Assembly: GCA_028823445.1 (NCBI GenBank)
Contig: JAPKBH010000019.1
Location: 1 to 32,769 of the forward strand
DNA: 32,769 bases
DNA from: Acidimicrobiales bacterium
GTDB lineage: Bacteria > Actinomycetota > Acidimicrobiia > Acidimicrobiales > MedAcidi-G1
Reading direction: 5' to 3'
How positions within the stretch are numbered: position 1 is the first letter of the stretch; each line of letters begins with the position of its first letter. Positions 15,847 through 16,155 of this stretch are shown in pieces. A program made the translations under genes and the position numbers. The notes beneath the pieces were generated by a model. It was not told the origin of the DNA and did no database searches. It worked only from the letters and a program-made list of their open reading frames with translations.

Positions 15847-15887
15847 GTGACATGGTGTCGGAGACATGGTGTCGAACACCATGTCAC
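15847..15887. repeat. Cluster of three GACATGGTGT units, two direct and one inverted
   Basis: GACATGGTGT occurs at 15849-15858 and 15863-15872, and its inverse ACACCATGTC at 15876-15885. The outer copies form an exact 12-bp inverted repeat (15847-15858 with 15876-15887). The inner pair forms a near-continuous palindrome with a 3-base centre (CGA). The cluster lies upstream of the amidohydrolase on one strand and contains the ATG (15881) of the small plus-strand ORF on the other. It may be an operator, or in RNA a hairpin hiding that start codon. Confidence 0.75.
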
Positions 15888-15961
15888 TCAGTGGGTGGCT
15901 GAAGGGAACGGATTGGGAGGTTAAGGTGGAGGTACCGAGGAAAGGAGGTGGTCCAAATTAG
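15881..15961 (+). CDS. Candidate 26-codon leader-type ORF ending in RKGGGPN
   Basis: The frame starts at the ATG inside the palindromic cluster and encodes 26 residues: MSLSGWLKGTDWEV, then KVEV, then PRKGGGPN, ending in two consecutive TAG codons (15959-15964). The codons for RKGGGP form the 16-nt run GGAAAGGAGGTGGTCC (15939-15954), which is complementary throughout (two G-U pairs) to the canonical 3' end of bacterial 16S rRNA. No ribosome-binding site precedes the ATG. No plus-strand gene follows until 16649. The extreme SD-like run suggests a regulatory leader peptide or translation-sensing RNA rather than a functional protein. Expression is unproven, and I cannot place it in a named family. 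Confidence 0.45.
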   Translation: MSLSGWLKGTDWEVKVEVPRKGGGPN

Positions 15962-16083
15962 TAGCAAACCTTGTAGGGCTTCGGAGGTGGACGGCCGCTA
16001 GACGGCCCTGGACCATCTGGCGATTACCCGCCATCCACCCCTAAAACGACCGTCAGCTTTGGTCCTGCCTGACGTTATTGGTC
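15939..16083 (+). ncRNA. Candidate structured RNA with SD-mimic and alternative pairings
   Basis: The SD-like segment 15946-15955 can pair for 10 bp (one wobble) with 16009-16018, masking it. A competing stem joins 15986-15995 to 16030-16039 (nine of ten pairs). Within the region GACGGCC is repeated (15990-15996 in extended form, and 16001-16007). TGGCG/CGCCA forms a 5-bp hairpin (16018-16022 with 16029-16033). A 6-bp stem CGTCAG/CTGACG (16051-16056 with 16069-16074), followed by TTATT, may end the transcript. The mutually exclusive pairings around a translated SD-like run look like an attenuator or ribosome-responsive switch, but there is no downstream gene to control. The pairing is read by eye; function is inferred. 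Confidence 0.4.
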
Positions 16084-16107
16084 GATTTGGGAACTCCAGA
16101 AAGTTCT

Positions 16108-16155
16108 AAAAAATTAAGACACCGGGAGTGCACCAAGTTGGTGTGCTCCCGTGTC
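16108..16155 (-). terminator. Rho-independent terminator of the VOC gene
   Basis: Read on the minus strand, a long imperfect hairpin (arms 16118-16136 and 16138-16155, about 17 pairs, GACAC/GTGTC at the base) is followed by TTAATTTTTT. It lies 25 bp after the VOC stop codon. Confidence 0.8.

Follow-up and report, generated by a model that had tools for sequence, protein, structure and literature searches.

A predicted stand-alone RNA gene of the Ms_IGR-5 (RF02471) type with a conserved micro-ORF behind an extended Shine-Dalgarno sequence in an Acidimicrobiales genome

The closest described relatives of the RNA reported here belong to Rfam family RF02471 (Ms_IGR-5, "Actinobacteria sRNA"). Ms_IGR-5 was reported as an sRNA of Mycobacterium smegmatis (cited in PMC10454040), and its expression is documented for two species of Streptomyces, S. 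lividans (PMC8079986) and S. avermitilis (PMC8780764). In two mycobacteria, M. abscessus and M. smegmatis, MS_IGR-5 carried ribosome footprints, a finding that the authors qualified by pointing out that such footprints are common on non-coding RNAs (PMC4974804). In Staphylococcus aureus, extended Shine-Dalgarno (SD) sequences accompany near-cognate start codons, namely AUU of cvfC1 and AUA of infC and ccpN (PMC13009471). The peTrpL system of S. meliloti (PMC7298713) involves a short translated ORF, a small structured RNA and a possible function in trans. The Caulobacter sRNA CC2171 (RF01867) has at its start GAAAGGAGGUGAUCC, an anti-16S stretch that is also present at this locus; its covariance model gave only a chance-level match in the window (E 2.2, 12.9 bits against a cut-off of 75) and no match in the genome.

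The window, i.e. the whole stretch of 32,769 nucleotides that was analysed, almost certainly contains a relative of the first of these families: on sequence comparison, positions 15933-16151 of the plus strand are predicted to form a stand-alone RNA gene of about 220 nt of the Ms_IGR-5 (RF02471) type. The first-pass annotation of this DNA had found no named family for the region, and an Rfam search at the gathering threshold indeed missed the RNA, which proved placeable with a relaxed threshold, where cmscan matched RF02471 to 15934-16097 over the entire model (1-184 of 184; E 3.2e-8) with 42.1 bits, below the gathering cut-off of 45 bits. A relative from the same order (L052) reached 45.9 bits against RF02471, and a single covariance model built for this analysis (R1) matched both the RF02471 group and the window's group; on these grounds the window RNA is called a homologue, not a curated member, of RF02471. 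R1 matched 15933-16013 with an E-value of 6e-20, the window being among its building sequences. The window RNA shares with RF02471 the full-length model alignment, the 5' extended SD-like stretch and the next conserved block (both present end to end), the 3' hairpin region and the predicted arrangement as a stand-alone intergenic gene. It differs in that its order has mostly near-cognate starts and a potential SD-masking element, and the conserved micro-ORF described below contrasts with the filing of the family by Rfam as an sRNA.

Conservation delimited the same unit. By blastn, 73 of 100 related genomes retained the region (a few matches being short), with nearly all alignments beginning near 15933 and not at the ATG (15881) of a 26-codon ORF annotated previously, and this argues against a chance origin of the 16-nt anti-16S site within it. 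In an oriented alignment of 20 relatives, the conserved unit ran from a -10 box through ACCG and the extended SD to a conserved block, followed by hairpins and a 3' stem. The putative -10 promoter element TAAGGT (15922-15927), identified from the homologue alignment, stands 16 nt behind a weak -35 element (TGAAGG, 15900-15905), and a TANNNT motif ended 15-16 nt ahead of AAGGAGG in 81 of 109 homologues, against 0-3 at control positions. This spacing puts the RNA start near 15934, so the ATG at 15881 would fall outside the transcript. The probable 3' end is a hairpin (CGGGAGTGCACC/GGTGTGCTCCCG; 16123-16151) that close relatives have at the corresponding position, some of them with a U run; the conserved promoter box and 3' hairpin would fit a stand-alone intergenic transcript. 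The hairpin probably also terminates the convergent glyoxalase-like gene, for which the minus strand has a T-rich tract, so that one hairpin may serve both directions.

R1 found the RNA in 124 of 296 genomes sampled across Actinomycetota, and matches were present in 77 of 118 genomes of the order, nearly always as one clear copy, these and all other homologue counts referring to phylogenetically related sequences and hence not to independent events. No exact match to the RNA was found in viral contigs. The expectation of the first-pass annotation that homologues would keep both the RKGGGPN codons and the stems held for the RNA and failed for the peptide, as the conserved letters belong to the RNA and, further on, to an ORF in another frame.

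The extended SD, GGAAAGGAGGTGGTCC (15939-15954), paired with GGATCACCTCCTTTCT at 16 of 16 positions, two of them G-U, exactly as first described, with a computed duplex energy of -29.5 kcal/mol, and nowhere else in the window, on the plus or the minus strand, was there full pairing with GGAUCACCUCCUUUCU. The genome's own 16S 3' end was sought and is not present in the assembly, so that the comparison was made with nine relatives, one of the same genus, whose 16S tail is GGATCACCTCCTTTCTAAGGAG. Across the phylum (74 sequences) the core of the SD was near-invariant. As judged from the alignments, this sequence is the SD of a micro-ORF of 14 codons (15957-16001, plus strand; ATT AGT AGC AAA CCT TGT AGG GCT TCG GAG GTG GAC GGC CGC TAG) and not of the 26-codon ORF, into whose codons it had previously been read: the ORF that is conserved has its start behind the SD.

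The micro-ORF, which lies directly behind the SD and is 9-18 codons long, was recognised on comparing about 100 homologues, and the counts come from the 98 unique sequences. A start codon (ATG, GTG, TTG, CTG, ATT or ATC) occurred in frame within 9 nt of the SD in 94 of the 98 (10 and 13 in the other two frames), an ORF of 9-20 codons likewise in 94 (5 and 3 in the other frames), and the frame reading GAG GTG was stop-free from the SD to GAG in 96 (61 and 17). The first stop came exactly 15 nt past GAG in 95 of the 98 homologues, and the three stop codons interchanged (overall counts TAG 67, TGA 25, TAA 5). The three exceptions (L107, L110 and L113) had a one-base shift over GGAGGTG, and in them a TTG start and a TAG stop again shared one frame. 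Among 40 further loci found by the covariance model and held out from its building, 39 had the micro-ORF, the remaining one resembling a chance match inside a gene; several of these lineages read GGA GGT instead of GAG GTG, yet kept the ORF.

Single-base codon differences showed no synonymous excess relative to both other frames, and second codon positions were the most variable. There was accordingly no sign of selection on the amino-acid sequence of the kind expected of a small protein-coding gene, and lineages with a shifted frame kept an ORF. From these comparisons, the existence, start and stop of the micro-ORF are conserved and its peptide sequence is not. Since evolution has preserved the start, the open frame and the stop but let the peptide vary, the act of translation itself appears to be selected, and the micro-ORF is probably translated. 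Its first codons were recurrently rich in Ser and Asp (SSDSS, SDSS, ISSSSS) in different lineages (L049, L074, L077, L175, L197), with AGY and TCN serine codons both used in places. A literature search that covered largely open-access journals found the micro-ORF described nowhere.

In the window the codon 8 nt past AGGAGG is ATT, and most of the order likewise has a near-cognate start. Among the 54 homologues that lack a canonical start, this position always held ATC, ATT or CTG, whereas it was unrestricted where a canonical start follows, a restriction that favours near-cognate initiation and makes ATT the putative exact start. The GTG within the SD (15948-15950) may be an alternative start; it was in frame in 49 of the 54 near-cognate homologues as a consequence of the 8-nt spacing and missing from five CTG cases. 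It was rejected as the preferred start, being out of frame in many lineages with a canonical start, and the near-cognate site being restricted to ATC, ATT or CTG. The combination of a very strong extended SD with a near-cognate start codon resembles that of the S. aureus sites, with the difference that those serve ordinary proteins and the present one an ORF of 9-18 codons without a conserved peptide.

Four pairings with covariation have one strand inside the micro-ORF. Helix H1a joins CCGA (15935-15938) to UCGG (15981-15984, within the micro-ORF) and encloses the SD and the start codon; across the phylum (74 sequences) its covariation was 0.624 compared to 0.188 in shuffled alignments (0 of 500), both sides having changed in 122 cells. 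A pseudoknot, found unaided by RNAalifold, pairs AGGGC (15975-15979, within the micro-ORF) with GUCCU (16062-16066) in the loop of hairpin P5 (16051-16074; CGTCAG...CTGACG, with a conserved GGUCC loop; alignment A1), and was paired in 100% of cells (40 sequences) with compensatory change at two pairs. Helix P2, already proposed as a possible stem in the first-pass annotation, pairs 15986-15995 (within the micro-ORF) with GCCATCCACC (16030-16039) and showed compensatory change at four pairs, as did helix P3, in which CGCTAG (15996-16001), comprising the last sense codon and the stop, pairs with CTGGCG (16017-16022). In 40 sequences of the order, H1a, the pseudoknot, P2 and P3 together had 12 compensatory pairs and 94.1% of cells paired, and their covariation (0.219 compared to 0.134 in shuffles; 0 of 500) was destroyed by sliding. 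An alternative hairpin (alignment columns 112-115 with 125-128) was also supported; as it has one strand in common with P2 and P3, the RNA may be able to switch. Helix H1b, pairing GGUCC of the SD with GGGAC in the ORF, was paired in 99.5% of cells without compensatory change and was rejected; the pairing of GGGAC with the P5 loop was preferred, as it alone has compensatory change. Thermodynamic folding of the plus strand alone gave no signal (z 0.06), and the minus strand folded better than shuffles (z -3.06), but the stretch contains a palindrome.

The other stem possible in the sequence, between the potential SD mask TGGACCATC (16009-16017) and 15947-15955 (-16.6 kcal/mol), is conserved in the order. 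It was paired in 95% of cells (40 order sequences), and because its strands are nearly invariant, covariation neither supports nor refutes it. The earlier proposal of a ribosome-engaging regulatory RNA with alternative stems is probably correct and backed by covariation for P2, covariation being silent on the masking stem. An anti-SD-like mask in the P3 insert was rejected as a phylum-wide feature: 8 of 39 sequences from outside the order differed from shuffles at p<0.05, with no correction for kinship, and significance was lacking in the Mycobacterium- and Streptomyces-like sequences. On this comparison, the SD mask is a lineage feature only. Segments reading GGACCACCTCC or GGATCACCTCC, mimics of the 16S 3' end, were seen inside the RNA of some other lineages (L045, L095, L109, L115 and others), in the insert after the stop codon, where they could pair with the RNA's own SD.

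The 3' strand of H1a and the 5' strands of the pseudoknot, P2 and P3 (the last including the stop) all lie inside the ORF, so a translating ribosome must open these helices, and folding and translation would be mutually exclusive. Of the explanations compared, the best overall, and one that is somewhat favoured, is an RNA that stands alone, acts in trans and is gated by its own translation, similar to an attenuator leader without a gene in cis.

Alternatively, the RNA might simply encode, as its mRNA, a functional micropeptide of 12-18 aa, frequently with the ending T-x-E-V-x-G-R; this would fit the conserved start, open frame and stop and the recurrence of a C-terminal T-x-E-V-x-(G/A)-(R/C/S) in most lineages. 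This is unlikely in view of the lack of synonymous bias and the variability of second codon positions; moreover, several lineages read GGAGGTG in another frame (SGGGSS-stop, GGDCR-stop) and still keep the ORF, and the conserved letters coincide with the pairing strands of P2, P3 and H1a. Equally improbable is a ribosome decoy, in which the extended SD would sequester 30S subunits or block 16S 3' ends and so damp translation, the ORF being a by-product. The 16-nt complementarity and its duplex energy, the position of the SD core among the most conserved parts, and its place close to the 5' end, within the loop that H1a closes, would all suit a decoy, but a pure decoy needs neither the in-frame start nor the maintained frame nor the fixed stop, all of which are conserved.

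The gene neighbourhood bears on whether the RNA acts in cis. Its neighbours in the window are an amidohydrolase gene and a glyoxalase-like gene, the next gene being convergent. Across lineages they varied and lay on both strands, including a convergent THAP4-like haem-binding gene, an HNH gene, a prephenate dehydratase gene and a co-directional oxygenase gene, which argues against a conserved target in cis. Upstream of the amidohydrolase gene, the window also has a palindromic repeat (GACATGGTGTC..GACACCATGTC; 15847-15887) that includes part of a third arm and recurs at least five times elsewhere in the genome (C23, C29, C50, C57, C59); it could be a transcription-factor operator or a small repeat element, and the ATG at 15881 sits inside it.

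The RNA is therefore very unlikely to be the cis-acting attenuator leader of a neighbouring gene. It does resemble transcription attenuators in having an SD, a short ORF, alternative helices and a hairpin at its end, and the conserved ORF appears to overlap competing helices as in such leaders; a conserved co-directional gene downstream, however, was absent across the lineages compared. The earlier suggestion of a leader peptide that has lost its target fares no better, the same stand-alone arrangement recurring in unrelated neighbourhoods across the phylum. Slighter still is the probability of an antisense sponge that would bind C-rich sRNAs or mRNAs through exposed AGGAGGUGG sequences, for which two G-rich SD-like stretches (15943-15954 and 15985-15990) are available, as it leaves the conservation of the ORF unexplained. 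The chance that the 26-codon ORF (15881-15958) is a genuine, perhaps decayed, leader peptide is negligible: it has an ATG and an open frame, reading MSLSGWLKGTDWEVKVEVPRKGGGPN and then TAG TAG as annotated, but the ATG precedes the inferred transcription start by about 50 nt and stands ahead of the conserved -10 box and of the conservation beginning at about 15933, and in 33 of 109 homologues the frame meets a stop within the last 60 nt before the SD, so that the ORF was regarded as spurious.

In the favoured explanation, a trans-acting RNA gated by its own translation, 30S subunits would bind through the extended SD-anti-SD helix, and translation of the micro-ORF would unfold the RNA. Where initiation is slow, the RNA would fold, and in the window's order 16009-16017 may then also cover the SD. 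Ribosome engagement would in this way set the conformation of the RNA, its stability or its ability to act in trans. The gating step, taken by itself, is a plausible proposal that falls somewhat short of even odds. The system compares with peTrpL in its short translated ORF, small structured RNA and possible function in trans, and differs in that peTrpL arises by attenuation upstream of a biosynthetic operon, whereas no conserved downstream gene or codon run is present here.

More tentatively, the RNA may be a phylum-wide, single-copy sensor of translation initiation, in which the SD and, in most Acidimicrobiales, the near-cognate start would tie ribosome loading to the stringency of initiation, and passage of the ribosome to the fixed stop would toggle the RNA between folded and open trans-acting forms, the act of translation and not the peptide being selected. 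If true, this would be an attenuator-like sensor without a gene in cis. The signature of a translated ORF, strongly conserved and absent from the papers found, belongs to an RNA that is classed as non-coding and has been reported from Mycobacterium and Streptomyces; at stake is the distinction between a 'non-coding sRNA' and an RNA whose function would be its own translation.
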